Shown here: positions 1,091 to 25,899 of the stretch, one piece after another | Layout of the letters: the number at the start of each line of letters is the position of its first letter | How positions within the stretch are numbered: position 1 is the stretch's first letter | Source of the DNA: Laccaria trichodermophora | Taxonomy: Eukaryota > Basidiomycota > Agaricomycetes > Agaricales > Hydnangiaceae | Reading direction: 5' to 3' | Assembly (NCBI GenBank): GCA_018417955.1 | Contig: JACTVC010000036.1 | Coordinates: forward strand, 186,001 to 250,000 | Length of the DNA: 64,000 nucleotides | Notes under the pieces: model-generated | The model's database searches: none | The model's input: only the letters and a program-made list of their open reading frames with translations | Told to the model about the DNA's origin: nothing | Program-made: the position numbers and the translations under genes

Positions 1091-1124
1091 CGGCATTTTG
1101 GTGAGGTCTTTACCTTGCCCGGGT

Positions 1125-1432
1125 TAATCCATATGGAATCCATCAGCAATTCCATGTGGAATCCATGGAATGAATGTTGGCTGGGACAACAGCCAATTTA
1201 TTGTTCCATGGACATCATGGATTCCATATGGAATGATCATGGAATGGTCATGGAATGGTCAATTCCACATGGAATCCATCACTATTCCACATGGATTCCA
1301 CTGAATTCCATATGGAATTTATGCATATCCACCATGGAATCCATGGACAAGTCCATATGGAATCCATGGATAAGTCCACATGGATTCCATGGAACAAGTC
1401 CATATGGATTCCATGGAAACCATTAGAATACA
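1125..1432. repeat. Left palindrome array, TCCATATGGA dialect
   Basis: Sub-terminal array of short palindromes: GGAATCC/GGATTCC alternating with TCCATATGGA, TCCATGGA and TCCACATGGA. The same words fill the right end of the element at 6936-7320. Confidence 0.85.
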
Positions 1433-1519
1433 TACAAGCATTACTAGAAACTATTGAATAGAAACTCAGTAGCATTTGTAGTGTCCTTACTATATTAAAA
1501 ATAAAAATTTTAAAGTTGC

Positions 1520-1592
1520 ATTCTCGAAGGATTGAACTTGAGACCACAGGGATGCAAACAGCGCTAAAGCCAACTGGACCAAACCGGCTTTG
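1520..1592 (-). other. tRNA-like (Pol III promoter-like) sequence inside the left array
   Basis: On the minus strand an A-box-like TGGTCCAGTTGG (about 1570-1581) is followed about 40 nt later by a B-box-like AAGTTCAATCC (about 1529-1540), as in tRNA genes and tRNA-derived SINE heads. I do not see a full cloverleaf, so this is a tRNA relic or tRNA-derived module, not a working tRNA. It points out of the element, through the left array. Confidence 0.55.
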
Positions 1593-1751
1593 TTAGATAT
1601 AGAACCATGGGAAAATATATCACACCCTCACAGCCTGTTGCGTCCCAAACGTGGTAACTATGACTGAAGCGTTGCCACGTCACTTCTTTCTTACCACAAC
1701 CACGACCATCAACGACCACGACCATCAACCAACCACTACCACCTCGACTCC

Positions 1752-4483
1752 ATGCCACCCCGTACCCGTGCCGACGACAAGGCCTCGCGCAGCGGCCACG
1801 TACGCGCCCATTCGCCTGTCCGAAAGCGAGGACCGTCCAACGCGGGCGACCAGGCAAGCAAGCACCAGAAGAAATGTCAGGAGGACCCTGACGACATGCC
1901 CGCACAGCCCGAAGCAACGCAGGAGGAGGCGAGAGGAGCAAAAACGGGGAAGAAGAGAGGGGGGAAGATGAAGAAGGGGAAGAAAACGAGGTGCGTACCC
2001 CATCCACGTCGATCACCCCCCATCGATAACGCTGATGGGCCCCGATTACAGGAAAACGAGCGCCGACAAGGCTGCTGAGGATGCCAGCCAGCCATCTCCC
2101 ACCAAACTCACCCCGTAAGCAGCCTCCCCCCCCTTTTTTATATTTTTTTCTAATACTACTAACATCTGCAGGGCCGAGCGAAAGCTCGTCGCCAGCGGCA
2201 TCACCATTGCCCCCCCGGAACAAATCCGGGATCCCAAAGCATCCCACATGCCGCCCCCGCCAACCATTGTTAGCGCCCGAGAGCGTCGTCACGACGACAA
2301 TGCCCCCATGAAGGACCCACGCATGGACGACAAGGACCACAGTGGCAACAGCTCGGAAACGAGCAGTGAGGACCATGGTGGTGCCCACGACGACGCCAGC
2401 AGTACCAGCCAGGAGGACGACGATAACAGAGACGACGACAACGGGGACGATGATAACGGGGACGACAACAGCGATGGGGACGACAACAAAGTCGACGCCC
2501 CCACCAACGCTCACAGCAGCAACGACAGCATGGACGGCAATGGAGACAGTGGGGACGACCGCACCAGCAAGAAAGAAGACAAAGGTGACGCCAACGCCAG
2601 CGACGACGATGACGACACCAGCGACGATGACGCCAACAACAACAACGCCAACGCCAACGACAATGACGCCAGCGACGACGACGCCAATGCCAATGCCAAT
2701 ACCAACACCCCGCGCGACAACACCAGCCACCTCAATGCCAACGAAGACGACGCCAACGCGAACCACACCAACACCAACATCAATGCAGGCAACACCAACG
2801 CCAACCCCGACACCTGCGCCAACCCCGACCACAACAACGACGTCAGCGCCAACACTGACACCCTCCACACTAGGGCCGTGGGCAACGACAAGGCCCCCAG
2901 CCCAGCTTCTGGTTCTGAACATGCCCGAGGCAGTGAACAGCTCACCACTGACCTCGAGATGTTGGAACCAGGCCCAGGTATATACATTCCCTTAATTTTG
3001 TACTTTAATTTATACATATGTATAATAGTTACCTCTCTCCCTGCCCCTGCTGCTGATCAGGGTAATATAAATTATTCAATTTTCTATCTTCTAATTTCTG
3101 ACTTGCTTATATTTTAGATGTTGATATGGAATTAGAAGGGAGCCCACCAGCACTTGGGTCTTCACGCACAACAGGGGGTTTTTTACGTGGAAGGGCATTG
3201 GGAAACACCTTAAACCATGCCGATTTTCATAAGGTTCATTCTGGTGAACATTTTTTTACAGGCAGTTCTCAAGTGGACTACAAGATTTTTGCTTATCTGG
3301 TCTACAAAGACCCTGTTGAACTTAATGTAATTCCTGATCCTTTACTTCCTGCCAACACCATCTTTCGTATCTCTACTGTTCCTCCTTTGGAATCTGGGGT
3401 CGTTTTAAAGAAAGTAGCTAATCGGCTTGAGAGTGTCAAAGGTGGGTGAAGCCAAATATTCAACACTTTCAATTTACTGATGATTTTAAAGCTGCTCATG
3501 TTTTTTTGCAATCTAACTTGTCTGGTACTTGGCAGTGGAATCTCATGGGTCACTATGACAATGCTTTGTTGGATAATGAAAGCCTTGAAGTCAATAACAA
3601 CAATGAATGTCATATTTTATTTGTGAGTTTTATTATTGGTATTTATTGTTTTCATTTTCTTATTTTACATTTAAAGTGCCTTCCAAACAACTCTTTATTC
3701 TCTCTGGGATCTTCTTACCCCCCTTCCACTCACATCTCTAGTTCAATGTCTCGCTCTGCAGTATCTGAGTCTCGTTCTGGGTCCATGTCTCGCTATGCAT
3801 TCTCTGAATCTCATTCCCATCCTGATACTTCTCGTTCTCGTCCTGATACTCCCATGGACGTTTCTGTGCCATCTGGTGCTAAACGCACTATTGATGAGAA
3901 TCTGCTCTGTAGACTTAAAACAGCTGGGTTGCAGATCAATGAATCTCTGTGCTATGATACAAGCCCTGGTCTTCAGGTTATGTATCAACGTTACATACAC
4001 ATCCATAAGATTCAGGCTCAGGTTGCTGGCATGATTGCTGAGTGCAAGTGGCCAGCAGATGTTGGCAAGTATCCAAATAAGACTGAAATCATTGGTCTTT
4101 TTGTGGCCAAAACTACCTGGCACAATTCTTATGCCAAACTCTTTCCCACTGCTGAGGGCTATGAAGATATGCTGGCTTGGCTGGAGGGTGATCCCAACTC
4201 TAAATCAGACCTTGAGCTTTGGGGTGTCACAAAGTTGAAGTACACTCTGGTAGACTTGGAGGAATGGCTTAAAAAGCAGAAAGGCAAGAAAGTAGTCAAG
4301 TCCATGACGAAATCTGCTGCCAAGCCTGCTAAGGGTGCAAAGGAGAAGGAAAAGAAGCAAGGGTCAGGGTCAGGTGTTGGGAAGGGAGACCAAACAGAGT
4401 TGAAGCAGAAAGAAGTGGCCACAGAGCAGGTTGATAATAAGAAAAGGAGCCACAAGAAGAAAAAGGTTGCTGCTAGTGGGTAG
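1752..4483 (+). CDS. Transposon ORF1: acidic low-complexity / lysine-rich protein (789 aa)
   Basis: Six exons join in phase: 1752-1990, 2052-2114, 2172-2977, 3118-3441, 3492-3622, 3677-4483. The protein starts MPPRTRADDKASRSG. Its N-terminal half is basic, then very rich in Asp, Asn and Ala (encoded by GACGAC and GCCAAC runs, 2290-2870). Next comes a globular-looking part (SSQVDYKIFAYLVYKDPVELN...), a Ser-rich stretch (SMSRSAVSESRSGS), a conserved-looking segment with LFVAKTTWHNSYAKLFP, and a Lys-rich tail that could be a nuclear localisation signal. I cannot assign a domain. It lies 5' of the transposase in the same orientation and is probably an accessory protein of the transposon. Just downstream (4561-4690) another frame reads as a Ser-rich tail, so an alternative last exon is possible. 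Confidence 0.65.
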
Positions 4484-4687
4484 GTAGATTTTGGACTCAT
4501 CTCAATGTTTTTTTTTTGTATTTGTATAAGTGTGTTCACAAGTGTTCTCTTTTTTTTCTTTAGTGGTCATTACTGGATACTTCTAGTTCACTGTCTGACT
4601 TTGGCAATTCTGCACTTGTTTATGGTTCTAAAAATGCTTGGTCCTTCTTTGATGGTTCTGATGTTTCTGTGCCCTGGTGCCAATGCT

Positions 4688-6844
4688 ATGCAAAATGAAC
4701 AAGCATTTCCAGATATCTCATTCAAAGTGTTCAATGAGTTTATCACACAGAATTTCAGTTCAAAAATCACACTTGCAACTGTGTTGATGCTGTTGTTTAG
4801 CACAGTTGAAAACACAGATTTATTGAATCTCCATCGACGTCAGCAAAATCCCCAGCTTTCAGATGAAAAACGAGTAAATCTGAGCTCATGGATCAAATCA
4901 CTGGCTCGTGAAGTTGAAAAGCAGACTCCAAAACCAAAATTTAAAACTTTGTTTAAACAATCAGAAAATTTGAAATCACTTCCTGACAACCAAATTATAA
5001 CCAGCATTGGAACAAAGCTCAATAACTTTGCTGATTTATTGGGTCTTAATTCCTTTGGAAGTGATGGAAGGCCAATTCAAAGACTTCAACCAATTTCAAA
5101 AAAGGAAATTCAAGCAATCATGATAATTTGCCCACCATCAAATGTTTGTTCTGATGTTAAATGTCGAGGACGTGCCATTTTGCAACACTCAGATCCTAAT
5201 GAAATTGCCACAACAACTCTTATTAAAGGTTCTGAAATCTTTAAAGATGTTGCTATTCTGAGTGGAAAATGTTCTAGTTGCAAAACTCACTATTTTGCTG
5301 ATCATGAAAATTACCCTCAAGTTGGAGGCTCTCGGAGACGGGTATATCTTAATAATGCAAAATATTTGAAAGTTGGAAAATCTCTACATGTTGACCGAAC
5401 ATTTTCAAATGCCGTTGTTAATGGAACATACAGCTTTCATGCATCAGTGGCTGCTTATGCTGAGTTCTGGACCAACAGCTATGGAAAACAAGGCTCACTC
5501 AAACTTGAAAGACGTCAAATTTGGCAGGCATTTGTTCATGAAACAGTTCGTACCATTGCTCAAGCTTCTGGGGTCACATTTGAAACCAATGATAATCCAT
5601 CAATTGATGACTTCACTCATGATGCATTTGCTATTCTTGGTGAAGGTGGTGCTATGAGGCTGTCTGACAAACACACCTGCTCTGAGTGTACTCAAGAACG
5701 CAAGGCAGTTGCAGATTTTCTACCTGCTGCCAATGATGCAGCAGCTGTCCTTGGTGTTGATGAAAATCAAGCTGTACCTCAATTAGATGCTGCAGCTGCT
5801 GAAGAACTGCAAAATTTGGCAGAATCAGATGACCCAATGGATGTTGATACTGTAAATCAACCAGCTATGGTGAACATGGTTGTAATAGATGGCATTGTTA
5901 TGGGACCAACCCATTGTGCATTTGATAATTGTACAAGACCTCTTACAAATGCTTGTGGAAAGGGAGAATCATTTTGTCAGACCCATGAAAGAGAATTTCG
6001 TAATCGTTGTCGTGTTAAAGATTGTCAAAATAACAAGATTAACGGAACTCAAGCTTGTCATGAACATCGCAATGACTGGCATCGATATGGACAGTCTCAA
6101 TCAAAGTCAAGCTTGGCTGGTGTACGACGAATGCTAAATCAACCAAATGAAAATCTTGCCTGGAATCCAGAAGTTCCCAGGGATGTTCAACCTCATGATG
6201 AGGAAGCTCCTGAAGTGGAAAATAAAAACTATTTCAGTCCAAAGCGTTATTATTGTGTGGAAACAATTGTTGCACCTTGTGGTGTTGTCATTGCATGGGT
6301 CAAATTTGCAAAAGCTGAATCACCAACAAACATTCTAAAGTTTATGGAAGATACATTTCCAGATGAAAGTACAAGACCAGATTATATATGCATTGATAAG
6401 GCATGTTTGGTTCTTAGAACAAGCATTCAAAATGGAAGCTGGGATGAATGGTGCAAGACTACCCGACTTATGGTTGATGCATATCATTACATCAATCATC
6501 GCACTACAGATATGATCTGCCGAAAATATTGCAACCCTGCTCCTCTTGATGGATCAGCACCTAATTTGGTTATTGAAGCAGAGACAAAAGATGGGGAAAA
6601 ATATTTGAAACGAGCATTCAATACTCAAGCATGTGAACAATTGAATGGGTGGATTGGGGGATTTGATTCTATTTTGAAAAGGATGACTGTTGACAATTTC
6701 AACTGGTTTTTGCATGCAATGTTGTTTTATCATACCCGATATGTTCTTGAGAAGATAAAAAAGAGGGAAGAAAAGATGAAAGAAGGGGATAATGGAGATG
6801 GTGATGATAGTGATGATGATGGTGGTAGTGATAATGATGTATAA
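4688..6844 (+). CDS. KDZ-like transposase with CxC5/CxC6-type cysteine clusters
   Basis: The frame is open from 4505; I place the start at the ATG at 4688 (MQNEQAFPDISFKVF), because upstream residues are hydrophobic and look like translated intron or leader. The N-terminal part has a Cys cluster (CPPSNVCSDVKCRG ... GKCSSCKTHYF), matching CxC5 'cysteine cluster associated with KDZ transposases'. A second cluster (THCAFDNCTRPL ... CQTHEREFRNRC ... CQNNKINGTQACHEH) matches CxC6. The C-terminal part carries the candidate DDE residues: Asp in YICIDKACLV, Asp in MVDAYHYINH, and Glu in QACEQLNGWIGG, followed by WFLHAMLFYHTRY. It ends in a Lys/Asp-rich tail. The role is most likely cut-and-paste transposition of this element and its shorter relatives in the window. 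No internal stop is seen. Family assignment is from memory of motif patterns. Confidence 0.82.
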   Translation: MQNEQAFPDISFKVFNEFITQNFSSKITLATVLMLLFSTVENTDLLNLHRRQQNPQLSDEKRVNLSSWIKSLAREVEKQTPKPKFKTLFKQSENLKSLPDNQIITSIGTKLNNFADLLGLNSFGSDGRPIQRLQPISKKEIQAIMIICPPSNVCSDVKCRGRAILQHSDPNEIATTTLIKGSEIFKDVAILSGKCSSCKTHYFADHENYPQVGGSRRRVYLNNAKYLKVGKSLHVDRTFSNAVVNGTYSFHASVAAYAEFWTNSYGKQGSLKLERRQIWQAFVHETVRTIAQASGVTFETNDNPSIDDFTHDAFAILGEGGAMRLSDKHTCSECTQERKAVADFLPAANDAAAVLGVDENQAVPQLDAAAAEELQNLAESDDPMDVDTVNQPAMVNMVVIDGIVMGPTHCAFDNCTRPLTNACGKGESFCQTHEREFRNRCRVKDCQNNKINGTQACHEHRNDWHRYGQSQSKSSLAGVRRMLNQPNENLAWNPEVPRDVQPHDEEAPEVENKNYFSPKRYYCVETIVAPCGVVIAWVKFAKAESPTNILKFMEDTFPDESTRPDYICIDKACLVLRTSIQNGSWDEWCKTTRLMVDAYHYINHRTTDMICRKYCNPAPLDGSAPNLVIEAETKDGEKYLKRAFNTQACEQLNGWIGGFDSILKRMTVDNFNWFLHAMLFYHTRYVLEKIKKREEKMKEGDNGDGDDSDDDGGSDNDV

Positions 6845-6935
6845 TTTTAGTAGATAAAAGCTCAAATTTTTGTACTATGTCAATCAATACAACAACAGAC
6901 AATTTTAAGTGTAAGATGTTTATTCCACAAAGTCA

Positions 6936-7320
6936 TTCCATATGGATTCCATATGGAGTCCATGTGGATTCCACTCTGTAAACAGTGTAAGATAAGTGTG
7001 GAATTATGATTCCATGAACTCATTCCATATGGAAAGTCCATGGAATCCACCCACCAAAAGTATGGAATCCATCAGGAAAGTCCATGGAATCCATCAGGAA
7101 AGTCATGGAATCCATGTGGAAAAAGTATGGAATCCATATGGAAAAACCATGGAATCCATCCCCCATTCCATGGAATCCATCCACCAAAAGTATGGAATCC
7201 ATCCCCCATTCCATGGAATCCATCCACCATTCCATGGAATCCATCCCCCCATTCCATGGAATCCACCTGGAATTTCTGCAGTCCACCCCCCATTCCATGC
7301 ATTCCATATGGAATAACCTG
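6936..7320. repeat. Right palindrome array, TCCATATGGA dialect
   Basis: Tandem GGAATCC and TCC-n-GGA units (CCATATGGAATCC, CATTCCATGGAATCC) with spacers such as ACCAAAAGTA. Mirrors the left array at 1125-1432. Confidence 0.85.
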
Positions 7321-7345
7321 GGCAGGGTAAAGTACTGATTTTGGT

Positions 7346-9090: not shown

Positions 9091-9099
9091 GCAAATACA

Positions 9100-9300
9100 A
9101 TGGCTTTCTACCTCCTTCCCATCACTGAGAGTGTCACCTTGAAATCAGAATTCAAGGCTGAGAACATCATTGTCTTCCAGTCCGCGAAACTGGACATACG
9201 TCCCAAGGGTTTTGATAAAACCCACATCAATATCACCAGTGCTGATGGAGATGTCCTTCTCACGTTCGCCATCTGTCGCTCACAGAACACCATCGGCATA
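9100..9300 (+). pseudogene. Truncated fungal galectin
   Basis: From ATG 9100 the frame reads MAFYLLPITESVTLKSEF, then FKAENIIVFQSAKL and FDKTHINITSADGDVLLTF, and ends near RRSQ/CRSQNTI at about 9294. This is the first half of a CGL2-type galectin (beta-galactoside-binding lectin of fruiting bodies, about 150 aa). The beta-strands that follow the 'NAIVFNS' position are absent: the reading frame runs into an unrelated repeat at 9297. The part with the main sugar-binding residues is therefore missing, and the copy should be non-functional unless an exon lies elsewhere. No intron is visible inside the retained part. Confidence 0.65.
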
Positions 9301-9545
9301 TGGCGGGGGCTGCACTGTGGTTACAACAACACCTCCTTCCGCCTCCAGGGGGTCAGGTGCGCAGAGTCAGGGTGGAAGCCACCCCACCTACGCAAACGTC
9401 GCTCAAGCATCACGCTGGCAGCCTCACTGATGAACACTATTTGATCTCCAGCTTGTACGGCAGGGGCTGCACTGCAGTTACAACAACACCTCCCTCCGCC
9501 TCCAGGGGGGTTAGGTGCATGGAGTCAGAGTGGAAGCCTTGTCCA
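9297..9545 (+). repeat. Imperfect direct duplication of about 85 bp
   Basis: 9297-9380 and 9456-9540 share GGGGCTGCACTG followed by TTACAACAACACCTCC and CGCCTCCAGGGGG with few differences. The first copy abuts the point where the galectin fragment stops. Confidence 0.75.
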
Positions 9546-10039
9546 GGCAGAGAACATGAACTTGACATTGTTGGTGGGAATGGTATGCGGAACATGGCTT
9601 GAGAAAATACGTGTCTTGTAGGACGGCTGAGGAGTGGGAGGGTTGGTGGTCTTTTGAGGTACTTTGTTGTTCTCTTTGTAGTAGGTTTGCTAATAAAATT
9701 TGATGAACATTTTGCAGATCACGGCAAGGCATATGCAAACTCACCGCTTGGGACATTCCAGCAGCCATACCATGCCCCTCCCCGCATTACCTCAAGCAGG
9801 ACAATGTATGGTGTTCGCCTCTGCTCTGCAAGTTCAAGTCTAAGTGTTGCCCCTCGGTCTCCTAAGCCGCACATGAGGGGGCTCTCCATCGTACAGAGTG
9901 AGGATTAATGAGGAGATGAAGGAGAATTGGTTGGTGCGTATGGATGTACCTATTTATCAATCTCTGCATCCCTTGACCCCATCTCTGGACAGTCGTTAAT
10001 GAATGCGAATAGAGAGGTCTTAGCAGTGCCCCCCCTATT

Positions 10040-10240
10040 CCTGCAGGAATCCGGTCATTCCGGTGGAATTCCGGTGGATTCCAGTGGAATGGAATTTAGC
10101 AGAAGGCCCTGCTAAATTATTCATTCCGGTGTTTTCCATTCCAGTGGAATTCCGGTGGATTCCGGAATTTACACCGGAATGTTCCCCGGAATGGTCTTCC
10201 CCGGAATGGGCAGGAATGGTGTTCCCCGGAGTGGGCAGGA
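10040..10240. repeat. Left palindrome array, ATTCCGGTGG dialect
   Basis: Units such as TTCCGGTGGAATTCC and CCCCGGAATG, in the 10014-11716 element. Confidence 0.8.
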
Positions 10241-10974
10241 ATGGAAATCCTGTTTATTTTGTTTATTTGTTATGTATTATAGTTTATTTATTTTCGATGA
10301 ATAACAAACAATGCTTGTTTGGCAAACAATGCTCACCAAACATACTCTCTCCTTCCACCACCACCACCACCATGCTCGTCACCACCGCCAACGCCACGCC
10401 ATCGCCGTCACCCGTAGCCACCACCGCCCACGTCACTCGTCAATTACCCATGGCCACGACGACCACCAAAATCAACCACAACACCATTCAACGACAACGC
10501 GGCGACGCCACGTCACGAAACAACGAGCACCAGAACCCACGAAAACACCCAACGCCCACGAAAACAACGCCCCCGGACACAAAACAACACCCAACGGAGA
10601 CAAAACAACGCCCACCACCCACGTACACCACCAGCGCCCACGAGAACCATACCCCGCCCACGAAAACACCCCACCGCCCACCGAAAAACACGAGCGCCCA
10701 CCGAAAAACATGCGCCGCCTACCGAAAAACACGCACCGCCCACACGACACACGACGGCACCACGCCGCCTACCAAAACCACCACGTCCACACCAACGCCA
10801 CCCACGACGACGCCCCCAATGGCAACCAGCGCCCACGACGACGGCGACGACAACGCCCACGAATAACGCAAAAACACGGACACACGACGAAAACGCGAAC
10901 ACGCGACGACGACGACGAAATGCGACACAACGATGGGACGCCAACGCGGGACGACGATGGAGGTCCCAGCCACA

Positions 10975-11275
10975 CTCCCTCTCCCCTCCACCATTCCCTC
11001 TCTCCCTTCCTCCTTCCCCCTTTCCTCGTCCCTCCCCCTTGCTCCCTTCCCCCTTGCTCCACCATTCCCTCCCCCCTTTCCTCCCTCCCCCCTTTCCTCC
11101 CTCCCCCCTTTCCTCCCTCCCCCCTTTCCTCCCTCCCCCCTTTCCTCCCTCCCCCTTCCTTCCTTCCCTCTTTCTTGTCCTTCCCCCTTCCTCCCTCCCC
11201 TCCCTTGTTCTTCCCTCTTCCTTGTCCCTCCCAAAAATATAAATACACCCCCACCTTGTCCCTCCCCTACCCCCT
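10975..11275 (+). repeat. Polypyrimidine tract (CCCTCCCCCTTTCCT units)
   Basis: Nearly pure C/T on the plus strand with a repeated 14-15-nt unit. Similar tracts occur at the same relative place in the other non-autonomous elements. Confidence 0.9.
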
Positions 11276-11494
11276 CCCTTTAAGATAAACTGTGTAGTGT
11301 GTAGTAATACATTTCAAATACATTCCCACCTTGTCCCTCACCCCCTCCCTTTAAGATAAACTGTGTAGTGTGTGTAGTAATACATTTCAAATACATTACA
11401 ACTCAATCTATGACTTCTACATGTGAATTTTATAAGGGAATATGAGTGCCAAGTCATCAGGATAAGGGGAGTTGAAAAAAACTTACTCTGCTTG

Positions 11495-11700
11495 ATTCCA
11501 GTCCTATTCCAGTGGAATTCCAGTGGGATGCTGTGGATTCCACTGGAATGACTCTATTCCTGCAGGGTTCCCCTGGATTCCACTGGAATTCCTCTGGATT
11601 CCTCTGGAATTCCTCTGGAATGACTCTATTCCTGCAGGATTCCCCTGGAATTCCACTGGAATGACCCCATTCCTGCAGGATTCCTGCAGGAATAGGTGGG
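11495..11700. repeat. Right palindrome array, ATTCCACTGG dialect
   Basis: Units TTCCACTGGAATTCC and TTCCTGCAGGAAT ending in GGAATAGGTGGGGCACTG, in the 10014-11716 element. Confidence 0.85.
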
Positions 11701-11724
11701 GCACTGTAAAGTACTGCGAATAGA

Positions 11725-13871: not shown

Positions 13872-13873
13872 TA

Positions 13874-14137: not shown

Positions 14138-14413
14138 TATAAGACATTCTGAATGCTGTAGTTTTTAAACAAAAAGAATTTACAGTAGTACATTGAGATC
14201 CTCTTTGCAAATCCACCTAGTTCAATAGGAATGGTGCACTATTCCTCAAATGACACTGCTCACATTTTTGTCCATGCTAATTTCAAATAGGAGGCAATCC
14301 ATTGTGCAACAACACACCTGACCTCCTGCCAACCAATAGCAGAGTTTCAGGTGCTAAAATACAGTAAGTGTCTATATAAGTGGCATGTGGTCCAGCTTTT
14401 TTGCTCAAGAACA

Positions 14414-15860
14414 ATGTCTTTTTCCACTTATGCATCACCTCAGCCACATCTAGCCTTCTCTAATGAGTTCTTTGAATCTCTCAAAATTCATCAAATACCT
14501 GATCTTTCATACCCTTCAATGGCAGAACCTGGCTCTGTCTTTTTTAATGCACTTTTTGAGGATTCTCCCACCTCTGCTTCAGCCACAATTGTCACACCCA
14601 ATGAGGTCTTGCCACACTTTTCTGACTTACAACCAATTACAAAAGAAATGGAAAAAAGCTTTGAGGTTGGAATGCAGTCAGCTTCATGGGGAAGGGCCAT
14701 TTTGGACATTACACATTTTCCAAGGCAAGATACTTTAATTTGACTTCAAGTGGAGATACTGATTGATGGCTTTCAAGATCAATTTAATACAGAATATCAG
14801 CAATTACCTGCCAGCTGTTCAGGAGTACCAGCATCTCCTTACCCATTAGAAACTGCCTCAATTTGAAGTGCTTGGTCCTGCTCTTGAAGCATTCCGGAAT
14901 CAATTTTTTTGTGCCCGCTTACAAGGACTTTCCATCACCTGTGATTGCCCACTTTATAAGACATTTTTAACACCCTTGCTGAACTCACATATTTCTGTCA
15001 AGCTTTCCACCAAAGAGGTTTAACTTCAGCTGGAGCAGCAACAGGATTGCTTTTCCATCATCCTCCAGAATCCCTCATTCTTCTGACAACCTTTCTGATT
15101 AATGCCTGTGATGTGTTTCAAAGTTCCACAATGCCGATTTATACCAAAGAAATTCTTGCATTGTGGGAGCACATCCAGACTACCACTGTTTGCATCATTG
15201 CCATGAGTTTGGTTGCAGACAATCATTTTACTGCCCTCATTTATTGCCCAGGGTCTGTCAGTATTGAATATGGAGACCCTATGCACCAGCCACCAGGAGA
15301 TATCATCCCAGTCCTCCAATGGGTATTTCATGGATTATTTAAGACATCAATCTCTGAAATCACCTTTGGTTTCATTCCGAAGCAAGGGCCTGGCAATGGT
15401 GAAGGCAGTTGTGGGGTCATTGCACACAACTTCATTGAAATCACAGTTGACACACACTCAAACAGGGTCCAGTGTTGAAATGGACCCAAATCTGCATTAT
15501 TCAGAAATGTGGTTCTTCATGATTCAATTAGCTTTCACTATGCTTCAAGTCAAAGTGCTGGAGACTTTTTGGATTGGACTTTGCCAGTTTTGACTCCTGG
15601 TGGGCTTGAAAAAGGACAGGTCAATATTTTGACAAGCTCTGGATTCAATGATTTCAACAACTTTAGCCCCAATGTCAGTTACTTCTCCCAATTCATCAAC
15701 CTGTTAACCTGTCAAAAGTGCCAACTGTCAATAAATTACTGTCAATACCACAATTTCTTTTGCCACCATTTACTTTAAGTGCCACTGCCTACTCTGTGTC
15801 TGCTCCCCTAGTCAAAAAAGTCACATCAGGCAATCCCATCATGTTCTTGCCTCCACATCC
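14414..15860 (+). pseudogene. Ulp1-like (peptidase C48-type) transposon protein, degraded
   Basis: The first piece reads MSFSTYASPQPHLAFSNEFF up to a TGA at 14741. After several stops and frame changes, 15047-15478 contains NHFTALIY (candidate catalytic His), SIEYGDPMHQPPGD (Asp) and GEGSCGVIAHNFIEI (Cys), the order seen in Ulp1/C48 cysteine peptidases that often accompany large basidiomycete transposons. Further in-register pieces continue to SVSAPLVKKVTSGNPIMF near 15850. The host protein would cleave a ubiquitin-like modifier; here it is broken. The relic is interrupted by the element at 15931 and may continue as the FAR1-like piece at 19645. Confidence 0.55.
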
Positions 15861-15954
15861 TGGCCAGAAATGATGCCAAAATAGCCTTAACAGTCCACCA
15901 AACATGGTGTGAGCCAATCAATAAAAACTGCAGTACTTGACACTCCCACTGTTT

Positions 15955-16215
15955 GTCCAACGGAATCCAATGGACTTTCAGTGGTCCCTGCCATTTCCGA
16001 TGGACTCAGCGGATTGTCCATCAGAGTCTGCTGGACATGACTGGATTCCACTGCTAGTCCAGGCAAAGTCTGGTGAAAGTCCACTCAAACCACTTAAAAG
16101 CAAGAAATGGTTGGACTGGCTGGAATCCTGTGTCTGTTGGACTTCCAATGGAAACAGAGGCAGAAGCAGAAAAATTGCAAAGTTGTCAGTCCACTTGACT
16201 TCCAATGGACTTCTA
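15955..16215. repeat. Palindrome array, GTCCAATGGACTT dialect
   Basis: Units such as TCCAATGGACTTTCAGTGG and GTTGGACTTCCAATGG; here the core word is GTCC/GGAC rather than ATTCC/GGAAT. Same words at 19362-19625. Confidence 0.8.
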
Positions 16216-16385
16216 AGTAAAAAAGATACTAAGTGTTCAGTCTATAAATAAATCTAAGTTAAACCCTTATGCTGCTAAGTTAATCCTCAGAATTCCTTCA
16301 GTTCAGACACTAAGATTTCAAGAGACAAGAGACAAGGAAAATTGAAGTATATTTGATAACTACATAGGTTTATTTTACTATATTC

Positions 16386-17300
16386 TATGTCTCAGAGAGG
16401 GGGGAGTGGTGATCAGGAAGGAAGGGAGGAGGGAGTGGTGAGCAGAAAGGGAGGGGGGAGGGAGTGGTGAGTAATGGAGGGGGGAAGGGAGTGGTGCGGA
16501 GTAAGGCAGGGAGAGGGAGTGGTGAGGGGAGGGAGGGGAGGGAGTGGGGGAAAGTGATAAGGAGGGAGTAGTGAAGGGGAGAGGGAGTGGTGGGAAGGGA
16601 GTGGTAGAGGGGAGAGTGGTGGGAAGGGAGTGGAGGAGGGGGGAGGGAATGGTGGGGAGGGAGTGGTGGTGCTGGGCCCTCATCGCTGTTCACACATGGT
16701 GGTGTTGGGCCCTCGTCCGTTGTTATTCTGTGTTGGCATTGTCGCACGTTGTTGACGTGTCATCGTGTCATGTCATGTCATTGTCGCATGTTGTTGATGT
16801 GTTGTTGTGTCATGTCATGTCATTGTTGCATGTTGTTGATGTGTCGTCATGTCATGTCATGTCATTGTCGTTGTCATCACGTGTCGTGGGTGGTGCTGGG
16901 CTGCCATTGCCATTTGTGGGTGGGGTGTTGGTGGGCCGTTGTGGCCATCTATGGGTGCTGGTGGGCATGGTGAGCCATTGTTGCCCTTAATGGTGGTGGT
17001 GGTGGGTTGTCGTGCGGTTGTCGTCATTGTTGCATCACCATGTGGGCTGTTGTCACCGTTTATGGGTGCTGGTGGGCATCGTCAGCTGTTCTCCCCCTTG
17101 TCATCGTGTGTCATTGACACATCATTGTGTTGTTGTTGTTGTGTCATTGTGTCGTCGTCGTTGTGTTGTCATGTTGTTGTGCCGTCCATGTCATGTGTCA
17201 TTGACATGTCATCGTGTCGTGTCATCATGTGTTGGTGGGCTGTCATGGCTGTTTGTGGGTGGTGGGCATGGTGTGCTGTCAGTGTGTGTCATCGTCATCT
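16386..17300 (+). repeat. Purine tract followed by TGTCATGTCATTG low-complexity DNA
   Basis: 16386-16670 is almost pure G/A with GGGAGTGGTG units; 16740-17300 is a diverged TGTCATGTCATTGTTG / GGTGGGC repeat. It is the reverse-complement counterpart of the C/T tract plus CACCAC stretch of the other elements. Confidence 0.85.
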
Positions 17301-17309
17301 GTTGGTGGT

Positions 17310-18860
17310 GATACAGATGAAACCATTTCACCCATATAAAATTTGATTTTAACGATTTTACCAATAAAGGTCATCTCTAGTAAATACACTACATACAATT
17401 GCAATGATACAAAGAGTCAATGTGCATACCCGGCTCAGTTGACTAAAAATGCAAATGTGTGGAATCTGAAAATTGGACAAAGGCTTTGAAACTGGCAGCA
17501 GTACGCGTCGTGACATTATACTTGGATCCTATCTAAGATTCACCTACCATGAAATAGAGCATGAAGTGGTTCTAGAGTAAACACCCAACACAGGGAGAAG
17601 AATTGCATTACTACCAAAGGGTTTAGAAACACATAATGGATTTATTGTGAAAACTCGTGCTTATACAAGAAATACAGAAAAGACGACATAGACACCTAAA
17701 CGGCATGTCTGAAATGTTGAAAGACTAAACTACACCTAGGTAGTAAACATACAAAGACTTAGTGTGGCTCACAGCCATTCAGAAAGTCATGTACAGCAGT
17801 TCCTGCATACGCATCAAAGACTGATGCATCTGAACGTCACAAGTACAAACATAAGAGAAAGACCCATTCTATTATATGAAATATAATAAGAACCCCCTGA
17901 CAATTAAGAAAAAGACATTTGAAAACACCTTCGGAGTGTTTCCCAACCTCCATAATGAAAAGACGAGCCAAGACAAGGCATTTTAATTAAAAACTCGGAA
18001 ACAACAGGAGACCGAAGACTATTGGTAAATGCATACACATGCGCATCAACACATCAGGAAACATTAATCATTTTGTGATGTCATCTGTCAAACTGGTAAA
18101 CCGGGCCATAGAAAGAAACACGCAAGATCATGCCAAGCTAAGAATAGCTATGTTGGCTAACTCCGCGTATGCATCAAACACTGATGCATTTGAAAATGAA
18201 AGATGCAACACTACAAAAATCTGTAGTGTTCACAGAGAAAGACTACAAAATATACTACACATTCACTAAATTTCATATTTGTAATTCAGACCAAAGTATC
18301 CCACATTAAAAACACATGTAAAAAGTAGATAGGGGTTTCTGGAGTATATAAGGAGCACGCTGGCAGGTCAAAAGGCAAGCAATCGCCCCCCCATTGACCA
18401 GCTAGTTGCACTCCAAGTAGAGACTTAGGAGGTGGACAGTTGTAATCAATTAAAAGGAGATTTCTTCGTGGTTGGATAAGTACAGTGTGAACAAAGCCAG
18501 CATGCTTGGGAGTCAACTTGCTTGGAGACTTTTGAATAAGAGGTTTTAAGGACACAGTATCATTTTAGACGAGGCAGTGTACTCGTACCCTTGGTTTTGG
18601 AGCGTAGTGACATAATAAAAACTCATGGGAGTCATAAAAGTCAATTAAAGTCATGTTTTGTGTTAATAAAAGAAACTGTGATCAAAGAACTTTGCATTTA
18701 AGAGACCAAGTTCCCCAAAAGATATACTTTGTTCTATTGAACTATTCTAAACCACACCTTATAATAAAAACCCATTTTGAACGAAAACTCTTGAGACTAA
18801 ACCTAAGAAGACAAAAGTGGTATTTCTTAATACCAAAGGCCCTCGAACTCTTGCACCGAG
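17310..18860. other. Filler sequence inside the 3.7 kb element; no gene
   Basis: AT-rich DNA without an open frame I can support. An imperfect direct repeat is visible: GCATACGCATCAAAGACTGA (about 17807) versus GTATGCATCAAACACTGATG (about 18168), each followed by TGCATxTGAA. Confidence 0.5.
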
Positions 18861-18867
18861 ATTGTGA

Positions 18868-18895
18868 TAGTGTGTGTGTGTGTGTGTGTGTGTGA
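18868..18895 (+). repeat. TG dinucleotide microsatellite
   Basis: About 12-13 uninterrupted TG units followed by AGTGAGTGAGAG. Confidence 0.95.
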
Positions 18896-19243
18896 GTGAG
18901 AGTTAGGTGTATAGGGTTTTCCCCGATGCACTTGATCCTTGTTTGCATGTTTCGCACTTTCACGTTCATCTCCATGCAACGTGTATCAGTGGTCAGATGA
19001 GGTTGGGGTGGGATGGAAAGAGTGGGGATGGGGACTCACTTTGCACAGACAACATTGTCATCATGCATCGTCACCGTTGGACGACACTGGATTGTTGTTG
19101 TGGTTGGGGATGGATGATGGTTGAGGAAGAGAGAGGTGGATCATTGATGATGGGAAAATCAAGCATTGGTGTTTGCCGATGACCATTCTAGGAAGGCGGT
19201 CAAATAGTAGGTATGTATATTGCAAAACACCTACCTACATCAA

Positions 19244-19322
19244 AGCTGCCTTAGTGCAGCTGGTTCAGTGTCATGTTCAATATTCTTCAGTCCCTGAGGT
19301 CCAGTGTTCAATTCCATGATGT
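19244..19322 (+). other. tRNA-like sequence inside the left-type array
   Basis: A-box-like TTAGTGCAGCTGGTTCAG (19250-19267) and B-box-like GTGTTCAATTCC (19304-19315) at tRNA spacing. It points toward the left-type end of the 15931-19636 element, as at 1520-1592 and 20625-20705. Confidence 0.55.
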
Positions 19323-19361
19323 TGCATTTTTTTATATCTTATAATTATAATAAGAACAGTC

Positions 19362-19625
19362 TGTTGGAATTCTGTTGGACTTCTGTTGGAATTCCATTGG
19401 TGCTTGCCTGTCATTTCCAGTGGACTGGCTGTTAGTTTGTTGTTAGTCCATTGGAAGTCCATCAGAAAAGTCCAACGGACTTAGAGGTCCAACCAGAAAT
19501 GCTTGGAAAAGCTTCGGACATTCACTGGAAAATTGCTGTAGTTGCAAAGCAGAAAAAATGTCTGTTCTTAATACCCTCAGTCTGACAGAGTCCAGCTAGA
19601 GTCCACTCAGAAAAGCAGTGGCAGC
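19362..19625. repeat. Palindrome array, GTTGGACTTC dialect
   Basis: Units GTTGGAATTCTGTTGGACTT, GTCCATTGGAAGTCC, GTCCAACGGACTT; partner of 15955-16215. Confidence 0.8.
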
Positions 19626-19644
19626 ATAAAGACCTCAAAAACTG

Positions 19645-20337
19645 AGGCACTTACACCCACAGAGATATCGGACCTCACTCAGAATTTTATCAACTTGTGC
19701 TTGCCTAGTTCTAAAAGGAAGCCAAAGGGGAGATTGGCCAACCTTCCTGCCCCACACATACAACAGAATGTTTTTGTGTCATCTGATGAACCAAGCTCTG
19801 GTTCCAACTCTGAAACTCTGGTTGTTAGTACTTCTATCAGGCATCAATTCAAAATTGAAAGCCCAGATGGAGGTGAAAGCTGTTATTGATCTTTCCACAC
19901 CAAATCAAGTCTTGGTTATGCTAATCAAACAAGAAATCAAGGCAGAAGAACCAGGCACACCTCATGTCATCAACATCTGCATGCCTGAATCCAATCCTGT
20001 GCTCATGGACAGTAAATCTGCTCCTGCTATGTGTCCTCTGGTCAAAGTTACTCCAGGCATAGTGTGCTTGGGGACACTGTTTCATTCTTGGGAGGAGGCC
20101 TGGGATGCAGTATACACATGTGAGGAGTGTTTGGGGCACTGCTGGAGGATTGGTCAAAGCAAAATAGATATTCATGGAAACCAAAAGAATGTTACCTTGC
20201 AATGCAACCACTACTGCCAGCATCTTCCCATTCATTCTGTTAAAATTGATCCAGCAGATCATTGAAAGGGCAAATCAATCAAGACAAGCTGTGAGGCTTG
20301 TGTTAATGTCAACAGAATTCAATCTGCAGGTATATGG
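19645..20337 (+). pseudogene. FAR1/WRKY-GCM1-like DNA-binding domain protein, degraded
   Basis: After a Pro/Ser-rich lead (KRKPKGRLANLPAPHIQQNV) a frameshift near 19870 leads into a domain reading FHSWEEAWDAVYTCEECLGH, CWRIGQSKIDIHGNQKNVTL, CNHYCQHLPIHSVKIDPADH, an in-frame TGA, then KGKSIKTSCEACVNVNRIQS. The spacing of W, C/H and the DPxDH-(R)-KGKS motif resembles the FAR1-like zinc-binding domain found in transposase-derived fungal proteins. The TGA falls where Arg (CGA) is expected, consistent with a C-to-T change. The relic stops abruptly at the transposon end at 20338. Confidence 0.5.
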
Positions 20338-20359
20338 GAGCTCTTTACACTCCCCCACC

Positions 20360-20580
20360 TATTCCTACTGGACTCCCAGATTCCTACCAGACTGGACTGG
20401 GACTGGGACAATTTTCATGTTGGCTGATCACATACAAATTTTGTATCCCATTCCTACTGGAATGATCCCAAATCACAAGGAATTACAGATTCCTAAGGAA
20501 TGGGTATGGTGGAGTCCAATACCAGGAATACAATAGGAGTCCAGTAGGAATTTCCAAGTACAAGGAGTCCAATAGGATCA
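20360..20580. repeat. Left palindrome array, TCCTACTGGA dialect
   Basis: Units ATTCCTACTGGACTCCC and CCAATAGGAGTCCAGTAGGA. Contains the non-palindromic segment GGAATGATCCCAAATCACAA (20459) that recurs in the same orientation at 25769. Confidence 0.8.
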
Positions 20581-20624
20581 GCAGTTTGTTACTGTTGTTA
20601 TTATTATATAATAATAATAAGTGA

Positions 20625-20705
20625 ACCATGACAGAATCAAACCCTTGACTTCTTGGGCATAAGCAGAATATCAGTGCTTAACCAGCTGCACCACAATAGC
20701 ATTAT
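20625..20705 (-). other. tRNA-like sequence inside the left array
   Basis: On the minus strand GTGGTGCAGCTGGTTAAGC (A-box-like) and AGGGTTTGATTCTG (B-box-like) at tRNA spacing. Closely similar in its A-box to the copy at 19244-19322, and again pointing out through the left array. Confidence 0.5.
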
Positions 20706-21361
20706 TATAGGCACATAATATATTCTATACATACCTACAGGCTGACCTCTTGCTAGAAAGGACACCGGCAAATTCCACTGGAGTGTTGGGGCCCAACACT
20801 CCTTTCAGCAGATCCAGAGAGAGAAACACATTGTTTGGTCATGTTTGGCAAGGGCTTCAGGAGTAGATACACAATGCTTGTAAAGAGAGTGGATCATCAT
20901 CATCATCATCCACCATCCAGAGCATGTATTCGTGTTTGATCCTTTCCCAAGTTTCACTTGGCACCTCTCCACCACAAGTGGGAATTTCATGCAATCCATC
21001 AACCAACAACCTCCCATGTCACCACCACTCCATCCATGACACCCCAACAATGCTCACCTTTGACCCATGCCATTGACAACCAACACCAACTGCCATGCTG
21101 GCCAACAGACACCCTAGGAAGGCACAATGGCAAGCCATAATGCCAAACACACAAATGGCAATGAAGCAATGAATGCCACATCACTATCAGCAACAAGGCA
21201 ACCAAATGATGAATAACAAATTTCGATTCATCATTTGTAATCACCATTTGTAGGTACATCATCCCATGTCCCACGTCATTGCCCACTCACACCATTTAGC
21301 CAATGCTGGGTGCCACATTGTGACAGCAACATGGCACCCAGATGGAGGTCTTTATTGTCCT

Positions 21362-21544
21362 CCACTGATTCCTGCCGGAATCCGGGGAATTCCTGGAATT
21401 CCGGAGGAATCAAATTTGGCAGAGGGCCCTGCCAAATTGATCAAACAATTCCACAGAATTTTGAATGGAATTCAAATTCCGCTGGAATGATTCCGGTGAT
21501 CACCCGGAAGGAATGCTCACGGAATCAGACAGAACGGAATTCCT
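21362..21544. repeat. Left palindrome array, ATTCCGGAGG dialect
   Basis: Units CCTGCCGGAATCCGGGGAAT and TCCTGGAATTCCGGAGGAAT; partner of 24610-24715. Confidence 0.8.
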
Positions 21545-21592
21545 GATGCCCAAATCAAACGTCGGCATTTGCCGACGTTTGATTTGGGCATC
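21545..21592. repeat. Perfect 48-bp palindrome
   Basis: Arms 21545-21567 and 21570-21592 (GATGCCCAAATCAAACGTCG...) are exact reverse complements, 23 bp each, around a TT centre. It sits immediately inside the left array of the 21345-24732 element. Confidence 0.95.
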
Positions 21593-22244
21593 ATCAACAA
21601 ACAACGCCACATCTCTTTCCAACCACCATCATCACCGACACCTACTCACCACATCGCCAACGTCCACCACCACACACACCAGCCACCACGATGAGACGAC
21701 GACGACGGCCATGACACGGTAAACAACGCCTCAACGCCACGTCAACAACCCTAGTAAACAAGCACGGCAACACCACGTCGCTGATAGCGACATGGCAACC
21801 AGACGACAAACAACGATTTCGTCATTCATTGTCCTAGGTGAGCACCCCCCCAAACTCAGCCCAACCCAGCTCACTAACACCACACCCACAATGAGGGACG
21901 GACAGCACGTCAGCACCCCACCACGTCAACGGAGGGCCACGCGAACAGACGACCCACACATCACCACATCAACGGACCGCCACCACATCAACGGACGACA
22001 CCCATGTCAATGGACGACAACGACGACGTCAGCAGACAACGATGCCCACATCAGCGGAAAACGACAACGGCATCAGCAGACACCGCCCACGTCAACGGAC
22101 GACAGTGAGCACATCAACGAAGACACGACAGGAACGACATAAAGCACAGGCCGACGAACAGCGACGAGGCCCAGCACTCCCCATCACAGTCTCCCCCCTC
22201 CATCAGTCCCCACCACTGAGGTCTTTACCATCCCCCACATAATC

Positions 22245-22435
22245 CATATGGACTCCAGTGGATTCCAGTGGCCCATTTGTCAGGCCAAATTGGCTTGCAC
22301 AATTCCCAGTCCACTGGACTCTCACTGGACTACAAGCCACTTTCCTGAGTCCAGTCCCAGTCCAGTGGACTATGAGTCCAGTCAGAATCCACTGGAGTCC
22401 AGTGGAGTCCAGTGGATTCCAGTGATTCCAGTACA
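22245..22435. repeat. Left palindrome array, GTCCAGTGGA dialect
   Basis: Units ACTCCAGTGGATTCCAGTGG and GTCCAGTGGAGTCC; partner of 23676-23975. Confidence 0.85.
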
Positions 22436-23299
22436 TTATTGCTTATTACTTATTATTATTAATTATGAATACTACAAAAAAAGCAAAATGGACTATACAG
22501 ACTTATAATTCTATTGATCAATGAATAGAAAGGTAATGATATACATATTAGTATAGGTAGTGATAGCTGCAATAAGGATTCATGATTTTGGTCAGTCTGC
22601 GGGGTGAGGTCACATGACTACTTGAGGGTGTGCCATATCGTCACGTATCCTGTTTGCAGCATGGTCACACATCCGTGACCATCCCTTTCCCTTCCACCAC
22701 CACCACTGTCCTCTAACACCGCTGACGCCAACGCTGCCCACGCCAACAACGCCCATGCCCACGCCAATAACGCCCACGCCCACGCCAACAATGCCCACGC
22801 CAATGCAGAATGATGGGCCAAGAATGAGGGACAACGCCCATGACGTGGCAACGTCATGGGCCAAAGGTACGTATGCCCACCACCCCAATGCCCAGTTCTC
22901 ACCACGACAGGTGCCAGCGGCACGCAACAATGACTTGCGAGGACAACAAGGACAACGACGTGCGAGAACGATGACAATGATGACACGCGAGCACAACAAC
23001 ATGCGACAACAACAACATGACAACAACAACAACAACACGCAAGAACAACAACACACAACAACAACACGCAAGCATGACAATACGCGACAACAACGAACGA
23101 CACATGACGACAACGAACGAGTGCCCACCACCGCCAACGCCAATGCGGAATGGCGATGAGGGACCAGCAGCGGCACGCGACAACAACAACAACACACGAC
23201 AACAACAATGCGTGACAACAACAACGACATGCGAGCACGATGATATGCGACAGCGCCCACCACCGCCAACACCAATGCGGAACGGCGATGAGGGCCCAG

Positions 23300-23575
23300 C
23301 AGCAGCACCCCCTCCCCTCCACTCTCTCCCCCAATCACTACCTCCTCTCTTCACCACTCCCTCTGCCCTCCACTCTCTCCCCCCTTTCCCCCCTCCCCCT
23401 TTCCTTGCTCCCTCCCCCTCCATTCCTCTCTTCCCCCCTCCCTTTCCCTTCCCCCTTCCTTGCTCCCTCCCCCCTCCCTTTCCCTTCCTGACACCACTCC
23501 CTCCCCCTCCATTCCTCCCTTCCCCCTTCTTCCCTCTCCCCTTCCTTTTCCTTCTTCTCCCTCTCCCTTTCTGTA
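23300..23575 (+). repeat. Polypyrimidine tract
   Basis: CCCTCCCCTTTCC-type C/T tract of the innermost element. Confidence 0.9.
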
Positions 23576-23675
23576 ACATAGAATCTAGTAAATTTAATTA
23601 ATTTAATTAATAAATATATTTCAATTTTATTTTTTGTTTTGAGATCTAAGTTCAGGAATTCTGAATTAACTTAGG

Positions 23676-23975
23676 TCTGTGGCAGTCCAGTCCAGTCCAG
23701 TCCAGTTTTGTGTTGGGAGAGTCCAGTGGAGTCCAGATTTGTGATTTGCAGTCCAGTCCAGTCCAGTCCAGTCCAGTCCAGTTTTGTGTTGGGAAAGTCC
23801 AGTGGAGTCCAGTTTGTCCAGTCCAGTTTTGTGTTGGGAGTCCAGTGGAGTCCAGTGGAGTCCAGATTTGTGAATATTGTTATAATGGTCCAGTATATAG
23901 TGGAGTCCAGTGGAGTCCAGTGGAATCCAGTGGAAGCCAGTGGAATCCAGTGGAGTCCATGTGGATTGCATGGGG
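23676..23975. repeat. Right palindrome array, GTCCAGTGGA dialect
   Basis: Runs of GTCCA (up to six in a row) and GTCCAGTGGA units, with TTTTGTGTTGGGA spacers repeated three times. Confidence 0.85.
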
Positions 23976-23999
23976 GATGGTAAAGTATTGCCCACCACT

Positions 24000-24370
24000 C
24001 CATCCACCCTCCCTCTCTTCTCTCCCTCCCTCCTTCTTCCCTCCCTCCATCCTTCTTCCCTCCCTCTGTCCCTCTTCCCTCCCTCCATACCCCCCCTCTC
24101 TCCATACCCCCTCTCTCTCCATGCCCCCCCCCCTCTTTCCCTCCCTCCCCCCTCACTCCCTCACTCCCTCCCCTCCATCACTCCCTCCCTCCTCCATCAC
24201 TCCCTCCCCTCTCCATCACTCCCCACCACCTCTCCCCATCACCCCCTCCCCTCTCCACCACTCCCCACCACCTCTCCCCATCACTCCCTCTTCCATCACC
24301 CCTCTCCCCACCACCCCTCTCTCCTTCACCCCTCTCCCCCTCCCCTCCATCCCTCCCCCTCCCTTTAACA
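24000..24370 (+). repeat. Polypyrimidine tract with CACCACTCCC units
   Basis: C/T-rich with interspersed CATCACTCCC; belongs to the 21345-24732 element and was separated from its low-complexity part by the inner insertion. Confidence 0.9.
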
Positions 24371-24609
24371 CTCTATGTAGTAGGATGATTTTTTAGTAGA
24401 ATAATCTCATGTAGTTCTAGTGAATACACCTGAATTATTTATGTTCAAATTTGAATATCATAAGCAATTCCTAAGTTTAAGTTATCAGCATAGAATAGAA
24501 TAATAGATTGACTGACTGCATTACACAAGTAATTCAGGAGGTCTTGATAAGTGCAGATTAAGTCATATGACATCTAGCTAAAGTGGAATTGTAGGGGGAA
24601 TCAAGAAGT

Positions 24610-24715
24610 ATAGATTTGTACTGAAATTTCTGTCTATTCTAGTCGGATTCCTGTCAATTCCGGCCGGAATGCACAGAATTCCTGGAATTCCATGGAATCC
24701 GGTAGGAATCAGTGG
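24610..24715. repeat. Right palindrome array, ATTCCGGCCGGAAT dialect
   Basis: Short array with ATTCCGGCCGGAAT and GGAATTCCATGGAATCCGG. Confidence 0.75.
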
Positions 24716-25309
24716 AGGAATGGAAAGTATTGCCCAGATGATGTACAACAAACTGAAATTCATCATCCATCATCATTTTTTCTTCTAGACTATGACACCA
24801 CCCATAAAGATCAACTCCCCCCCTCTCTGAACAACTTCCACAGCACGCACAGGAGCTGCACCACCTATAAAAAGCACCCACCACCCACAACAAAACACCC
24901 ACCACTCTTGAAGAACACCCACTGCCCACAAATGACGATGCCACCCACAAATGATGACTGCCGCCCACAAAAAGCCCCACCCATGCATGCAAACAACACG
25001 GTGCCCACAAATGACAACTCAGTGCCCAAATGAGAACACCAAGGGACAGGAATGATGACCACCCATGAAATATGACCACCCATGCCATGGACCCCATGTA
25101 CAACAACAACAACCACCAACATATGACTCACGAGGGCCACGCCAGCACCCCAATACCTGGGTCGATTACACACCCAGGCAAGGGATGCAGCTACTTTACT
25201 ATGCTTAGGATGAGAATGACTGCCTGTGTACAACAACAACTGCCCACAAGAACAACTGCCCATGCACCAGAATGACTGCCCATGGATGAGATTGAACCCC
25301 ACCTGTCTT

Positions 25310-25555
25310 CCCCCTCCATCCATCCCCTCCCTCTCCCTCCATCTCTCCCCTCTCTCCCCTCCTTCCCCCTCCATCACTCCCACCTCCCTTCCCTCCCTTC
25401 CCCTCCCTCTCCCTCTCCCTGCCTCCCCCTCCCTTCCCCTCCCTCTCCCTCTCCCTGCCTCCCCCTCCCTTCTCCTCCCTTCCCTTCCCTCCCCCTGCCT
25501 TCCTCTGCCTTCCCCCTTCATCATTCCCCACCCCTTCCTCCCTCCCCCTCCCTGA
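25310..25555 (+). repeat. Polypyrimidine tract
   Basis: CCCTCCCTCTCCCT units, including a near-perfect duplication of about 45 bp (about 25395-25485). Part of the outermost element. Confidence 0.9.
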
Positions 25556-25694
25556 CCACATTAGATTATTAAATTTTTGTATATATTTGTGTATATAGTT
25601 ATCAATATAATATCTATGTTTACATGGAAGTTTGGTATGGAATTTTGAGGTGTTAAAAGGTCGACTGACTTAATCAAAAATTGATAGAATGCAT

Positions 25695-25885
25695 GATACT
25701 CTACTAGGAGTCCAGGAGGAATCCAGTAGGAATCCAACTGAAGCATTGGATTTTTCCTACTGGACTGGAATGATCCCAAATCACAAGGAATTGTGGATTC
25801 CTAAGGAATGGGTATAGTGGAGTCCAATAGGTGGAAAATGCCTTCTTTGGAAGAATTTTTGAAATCCAGTGGGAATAGGTGGGGG
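25695..25885. repeat. Right palindrome array, TCCTACTGGA dialect
   Basis: Units AGGAGTCCAGGAGGAATCC and TTTCCTACTGGACTGGAATG, ending GGAATAGGTGGGGGAGTG. Confidence 0.8.
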
Positions 25886-25899
25886 AGTGATAAGTACTG

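Follow-up and report, generated by a model that had tools for sequence, protein, structure and literature searches.

Candidate lineage-specific binding-site arrays at the ends of CxC5/CxC6 elements in Laccaria trichodermophora

Transposons of the CACTA/EnSpm group, which encode two functions and are served by TNPA, carry subterminal repeats at both ends whose motif is specific to the family, and the pace at which such repeats and their reader coevolve has been posed as a question for this group (PMC2613891). In the hAT element Hermes, a BED domain acts on the quasi-palindromic STR1-STR2 sites (PMC10368747). Inserts encoding CxC5/CxC6 proteins are present in dozens of copies in Pleurotus ostreatus, where a 6.8-kb insert in poMSH4 contains a 739-aa open reading frame (ORF) along with 46-bp direct repeats and a microsatellite cluster; its authors found no nearby transposase of the KDZ (Kyakuja-Dileera-Zisupton) type and linked the insert to Copia (PMC7641404). 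The present analysis concerns a 64,000-nucleotide stretch of the Laccaria trichodermophora genome (C30:186001-250000 of 59.0 Mb in 77 contigs; hereafter the window) that holds six elements, E1 to E6, with arrays of short palindrome-like words inside their ends. One of these, E1, encodes a 779-aa predicted DDE transposase (4505..6844, plus strand) with Pfam CxC5 and CxC6 matches. The words are probably, at odds of roughly six in ten, lineage-specific binding-site arrays for this protein or for a partner protein.

The locus resembles CACTA/EnSpm in its arrays at both ends, a motif that differs between families and two encoded functions, but CACTA elements have CACTA termini and 3-bp duplications (PMC2613891), or 2-3 bp for the group at large, whereas here the termini are GAGGTCTT and CARTACTT, the duplications 8-9 bp, the repeats phased dyads and the protein of CxC5/CxC6 type. 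With hAT elements it shares duplications that are usually 8 bp (PMC12730594), a zinc domain and near-palindromic, strictly phased sites beside the terminus (PMC10368747); however, the 779-aa protein has no Pfam match to the hAT dimerisation or BED domains, and here the word varies among lineages of a single genome. KDZ elements make 7-8 bp duplications (PMC12730594), and Pfam names the CxC clusters after them. The Zisupton-type 8-bp target duplication of that group is found here, yet a search of the 779-aa protein for the KDZ transposase domain PF18758 gave no hit at E values up to 1, and none of the matches listed lies inside nine end-to-end elements, although the domain has 182 matches elsewhere in the genome. 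The P. ostreatus insert offers the same CxC5/CxC6 pair, many copies and an ORF and insert of similar size; it differs in the Copia link, and the sections of PMC7641404 covered here do not mention termini or target duplication. Fungal Zn2Cys6 regulators also combine constant triplet half-sites (CGG) with spacers of variable length (PMC3334620), but the 779-aa protein has no such Pfam domain, and the likeness is one of analogy only. Family-specific subterminal repeats (CACTA) and phased near-palindromic sites (hAT) are already known. To the extent of the literature searched, the new features are the dyad grammar in helical phase, switches of spacing, an exchanged half-site in one lineage and the argument that CxC5/CxC6 proteins are transposases.

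The elements proposed in an earlier sequence-only reading of this DNA do exist, five with 8-9 bp duplications and E4 as paired ends only. The terminal 10-12 bases that it held to be common to all are in fact 8 bp, and these differ between left ends, which start GAGGTCTT (GAGCTCTT in E4), and right ends, which start CARTACTT when read inward. Behind them, each word consists of TCC and GGA inverted around 2-4 bases (TCC-N2..4-GGA). Such dyads with spacers of 2, 3 and 4 bp number 17, 40 and 37 in the 12 window ends, against shuffled means of 2.0, 2.2 and 2.5, and 95 of the 116 dyads in the window fall within the element ends (5,772 bp; 480 bp each), the remaining 58,228 bp holding 21. The words are thus far above chance. 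Of the 94 dyads counted in the window ends, however, only 29 form perfect palindromes, the spacer usually being asymmetric. An anchor dyad occupies bases 26-35 of the window elements, apart from E3, where the left one is degenerate and the right one has a 3-bp spacer. Genome-wide, this base-26 layout has 450 left-end and 653 right-end matches, compared with 1 and 13 for reversed-pattern controls. Among 276 dyads of 36 representative ends, a distance of 10-11 bp separates 106 of 240 neighbouring pairs (random mean 39, maximum 55), and the strongest of seven periods tested was 10.5 bp. The dyads thus stand in helical phase, and this phase carries on across gaps in the arrays.

For comparison with the proteins, 36 of 44 initial loci were kept, namely those whose transposase aligned over 300 residues or more and whose right end could be read, broken copies among them; these form 13 clusters at 15% divergence, with 31 copies testable for nearest neighbour. 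The nearest array belonged to the same transposase cluster in 31/31 cases at k=6 and 29/31 at k=5. Blind clustering of arrays by all 6-mers gave an adjusted Rand index (ARI) of 0.90 when 13 clusters were formed (11 clusters, 0.80; 15 clusters, 0.77), and whole words alone gave 0.56 with 29/31 nearest neighbours correct, shuffles reaching at most 0.22 in either case. Array similarity declines as transposase divergence rises, from 0.86 (<5%) through 0.65 (5-15%), 0.43 (15-40%) and 0.20 (40-50%) to 0.13 (>50%). Among the 219 dyads whose spacer measures 3 or 4 bp, 207 had the length typical of their cluster (shuffled maximum 150), 21 dyads with 2-bp spacers having been set aside, and the 3-bp label changes four times on the tree, three of these changes being forced by well-supported branches. 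Spelling and spacing of the words accordingly appear, for the most part, to match the position of an element in the transposase tree. A contrary case named in the sequence-only reading, in which words differ although the transposases are nearly identical, was not seen among the 36 copies; the lowest array similarity under 5% divergence, 0.38, belongs to the pair L042/L044, of which L044 has lost most of its array.

The element L042:2465-8822 has the same termini, a word at the anchor place, a 9-bp flanking repeat and a transposase 43% identical to that of the window. Its word is CTGATCAG, which occurs 7 times in the leftmost 330 bp, 12 times in the rightmost and nowhere in the intervening 5,698 bp; its ends have no TCC dyads. 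Its close relative L044 retains one copy of CTGATCAG beyond the anchor at the right end. The L042 lineage has replaced its half-site at both ends while keeping the terminal layout.

Agreement between the two ends of an element is strongest in the words. In 13 family representatives, the two arrays of an element have a 6-mer similarity of 0.512 against 0.231 between families, a value that none of 100,000 permutations equalled. In 28 unique end pairs, the left and right anchor spacers differ at 0.64 positions compared with 2.29 when shuffled (0/20,000). The ends share mainly their words, since masking dyads and half-sites leaves a left-right similarity of just 0.105 versus 0.076 (312/20,000), and in 11/13 representatives the longest exact strings common to both ends are word-like and 12-24 bp long; a 29-bp tract common to both E4 ends is the exception. 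The proposed dialects are real, but calling them private goes too far: at k=6 only 6/13 left ends and 7/13 right ends find their own partner as best match, because families of the same clade share words and some elements differ between ends. Nor do words always differ between elements: TCC-ACT-GGA occurs in E2, E6 and transposase clusters 3, 11 and 13, and ATAT/AT words are common to families E1, a1 and h1, while E5, credited with a dialect of its own, has so few dyads that no clear word emerges.

The 779-aa protein carries CxC5 at residues 204-326 and CxC6 at 460-527, its one other Pfam match being a sub-threshold Med2, and is predicted to have an integrase-like catalytic core (DDE/RNase H-like) with the triad D462, D631 and E711. 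Because this modelled core is integrase-like, the CxC5/CxC6 protein is likely to be the transposase itself. D462 and D631 are conserved in 77/77 aligned rows. Named relatives of the window proteins come from fungi including Laccaria, Flammula, Galerina and Pleurotus. A second ORF upstream (3446..4483, plus strand), which is likely a single exon within a larger gene, encodes an accessory protein with a domain of about 100 aa that recurs upstream of the transposase in 10/13 clusters, with none detected in clusters 3, 4 and 11.

The favoured interpretation, of words as binding sites, draws on the 8-9 bp duplications, the asymmetric 8-bp termini, the base-26 anchor, the phased dyads and the association of the word (half-site, spacer length and letters) with the transposase cluster. 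Under it, the TCC/GGA half-sites would be read by a protein dimer whose geometry is set by the spacer, and several dimers on one face of the DNA may join the ends in a synaptic complex for cut and paste. Gene-less copies would remain mobile by keeping the word of a transposase-bearing lineage, and after a change of reader the array would be remodelled through point changes, CpG decay and tandem duplication on a local scale, up to the stage where the new word stands at both ends. Comparisons inside each of five clusters give differences at 6.1% of half-site positions, 19.0% of spacer positions and 14.0% of positions in other array DNA, these figures being from ordered pairs that are not independent.

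Several observations weigh against this interpretation. With the words masked, the DNA of the same stretches matches the transposase clusters equally closely (ARI 0.94, 31/31 nearest neighbours), and between clusters the correlation of array with transposase is weak (Spearman -0.29, 53/3000 permutations). The array of L009 resembles clade A (0.62-0.65) despite 47-48% transposase divergence and has a similarity of 0.39 to that of its 17%-divergent relative L024. Conservation of half-sites is not peculiar to TCC: six of 28 inverted trinucleotide dyads tested show a lower difference score, all with far fewer sites. In cluster 6 half-site conservation is absent (0.262 vs 0.209). Some single elements carry different words at their two ends, a case that the sequence-only reading had counted against itself: e1, a relative of E2, has TCC-GGT-GGA four times on the left and TCC-ACA-GGA ten times in a row on the right; E2 has GGT three times on the left and AGA three times and AGG twice on the right, with AGT alone in common; and the words of f1 and f2 differ between ends too. 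For the protein, E711 is E in 41/77 rows, with 12 gaps, and lies where a likely intron often interrupts the sequence, and Foldseek alone found no PDB match for the transposase at E <= 0.001.

Whether the reader is the transposase or the accessory protein, in the manner of TNPA, is a choice within the binding-site interpretation and compatible with it. An accessory reader is a real if tentative possibility, given the CACTA precedent (PMC2613891) and the recurrence of its domain in most clusters; the clusters that lack a detected copy tell against it, as do the two cysteine clusters of the transposase, which could themselves bind DNA. A PDB search with the predicted fold of the accessory protein gave no useful match, which excludes nothing.

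Pure descent, in which end sequences were inherited with the transposase and words drifted with no change of reader, is rather unlikely as the whole account. The equally good clustering of non-word DNA and the fall of array similarity with transposase divergence both favour it, and common descent is enough to explain why words follow lineage. The comparison of arrays with transposases proposed in the sequence-only reading therefore gives no evidence for coevolution, as non-word DNA follows the clusters equally well. Of its proposal of coevolving transposase-binding iterons, the lineage-specific iterons are supported, because the anchor is fixed, the dyads are in helical phase, both ends share them, their spacing is distinctive and the CTGATCAG lineage exists, but coevolution beyond descent is not. 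Descent alone fits poorly with the recurrence of one word in numerous scattered copies, at two ends that otherwise have little in common, with spacing that is near-exclusive within clusters and with the replacement of the L042 half-site at both ends.

Homogenisation, whereby ends copy each other through gene conversion or words spread by slippage and local tandem duplication with no protein needed, is improbable. The ten consecutive words of the e1 right end, repeated blocks in the right end of E6 and the E4 tract, which exceeds its words, are what it would produce; however, whole-end gene conversion, the alternative offered with the original claim, is at odds with the collapse of left-right similarity on masking and with the mostly word-like shared strings, and helical phase is kept across gaps while the ends of e1, E2, f1 and f2 are still unequal. 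Least probable is decay of a single ancestral set of CG-containing words into different TG/CA forms, which is not sufficient alone: CpG transitions make up 117/334 right-end and 94/370 left-end differences in cluster 1, where CpG is about 10% of bases, and CpG observed/expected in E2, e1 and f1 (L057-L060) is 0.63-0.79 at left ends and 0.00-0.07 at right ends, but transitions are just 51/1104 differences in cluster 9, and decay cannot produce spacer length or the CTGATCAG half-site. Part of the word divergence nonetheless appears to be CpG decay, including much of the faster change of cluster 1 spacers relative to their surroundings (0.204 vs 0.084).

With 13 transposase clusters (36 copies) and hundreds of ends with readable words, this one genome offers a natural series for mapping residues to words. 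CxC5/CxC6 proteins, filed in Pfam as KDZ-associated, are suggested to be transposases in their own right, which, if true, could explain the poMSH4 insert of the sporeless oyster mushroom; that insert is itself probably a transposon of the present type and not a by-product of Copia. A more far-reaching proposal, unlikely as it stands, is that these elements form an unrecognised CxC5/CxC6 DDE superfamily whose code of half-site and spacer switches as a whole from one lineage to another (spacing from 3 to 4 bp, and in one case TCC/GGA replaced by CTGATCAG), dividing hundreds of ends into mutually unreadable sets and so letting transposase-bearing lineages escape gene-less parasites.

In the window, E1 (1103..7337, plus strand; 6235 bp) is flanked by an 8-bp target-site duplication (TSD), ATTTTGGT. 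Its arrays, at about 1128-1425 and 6936-7312, use the words TCCATATGGA, TCCACATGGA and TCCATGGA, with anchor dyads at 1128..1137 (plus strand; TCCATATGGA, element bases 26-35) and 7303..7312 (minus strand; bases 26-35 read inward). E2 (10014..11716, plus strand; 8-bp TSD CGAATAGA) and E3 (15931..19636, minus strand; 8-bp TSD AAAAACTG on the plus strand) have no transposase gene. The dyads of E2 are TCC-GGT-GGA and others on the left and TCC-AGT/AGA/AGG-GGA on the right, and the 3-bp spacers of E3 are AAT, AAC, GAT, GTT and ACT. E4 (20338..25899, plus strand), with paired ends carrying TCCTACTGGA / TCCAGTAGGA, shows no target duplication between its flanks (GTATATGG / GAGTAGAG) and hosts E5 (21345..24732, plus strand; 8-bp TSD CCCAGATG), whose few dyads include TCCTGCCGGA, TCCGGAGGA and TCCGGCCGGA. 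Nested in E5 is E6 (22218..23990, plus strand), with a 9-bp flanking repeat, CCCACCACT, the array word TCC-ACT-GGA and anchors with 4-bp spacers. An 8-bp TSD was found in four window elements and six other transposase-bearing copies (L036 with one mismatch), and a 9-bp flanking repeat in E6 and L042. Terminus or word links every window element to a copy that bears a transposase: E1 to itself; E2 to L033 and E5 to L041, by right terminus; E3 to L035-L040, by termini; E4 to L008, L025 and L031, by terminus and word; and E6 to L032, which has sixteen TCC-ACT-GGA.

Long polypyrimidine tracts lie within gene-less elements at 10960-11260, 23300-23560, 24000-24370 and 25290-25560. Left-end stem-loops occur at 10093-10118 (AATTTAGCAG..CTGCTAAATT) and 21413-21438 (AATTTGGCAG..CTGCCAAATT), with 0/60 shuffles as good, and f1 has a similar but weaker one. 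E3 is flanked on both sides by broken-looking coding sequence (14351-15478 and 19637-20262), which by eye resembles an Ulp1-type protease gene into which E3 would have inserted. Adjoining the elements, a large open frame on the minus strand (26355-29510) has 14 TPR_12 stretches and is, by reading alone, taken to be an NLR-like gene. Elsewhere in the genome (G000), the right-end motif GCACAGTAAAGTAC occurs as inverted pairs a few kb apart, at C2:1402106 and 1405954 and within C4:858241-892387, as if such elements had the same terminus at both ends.

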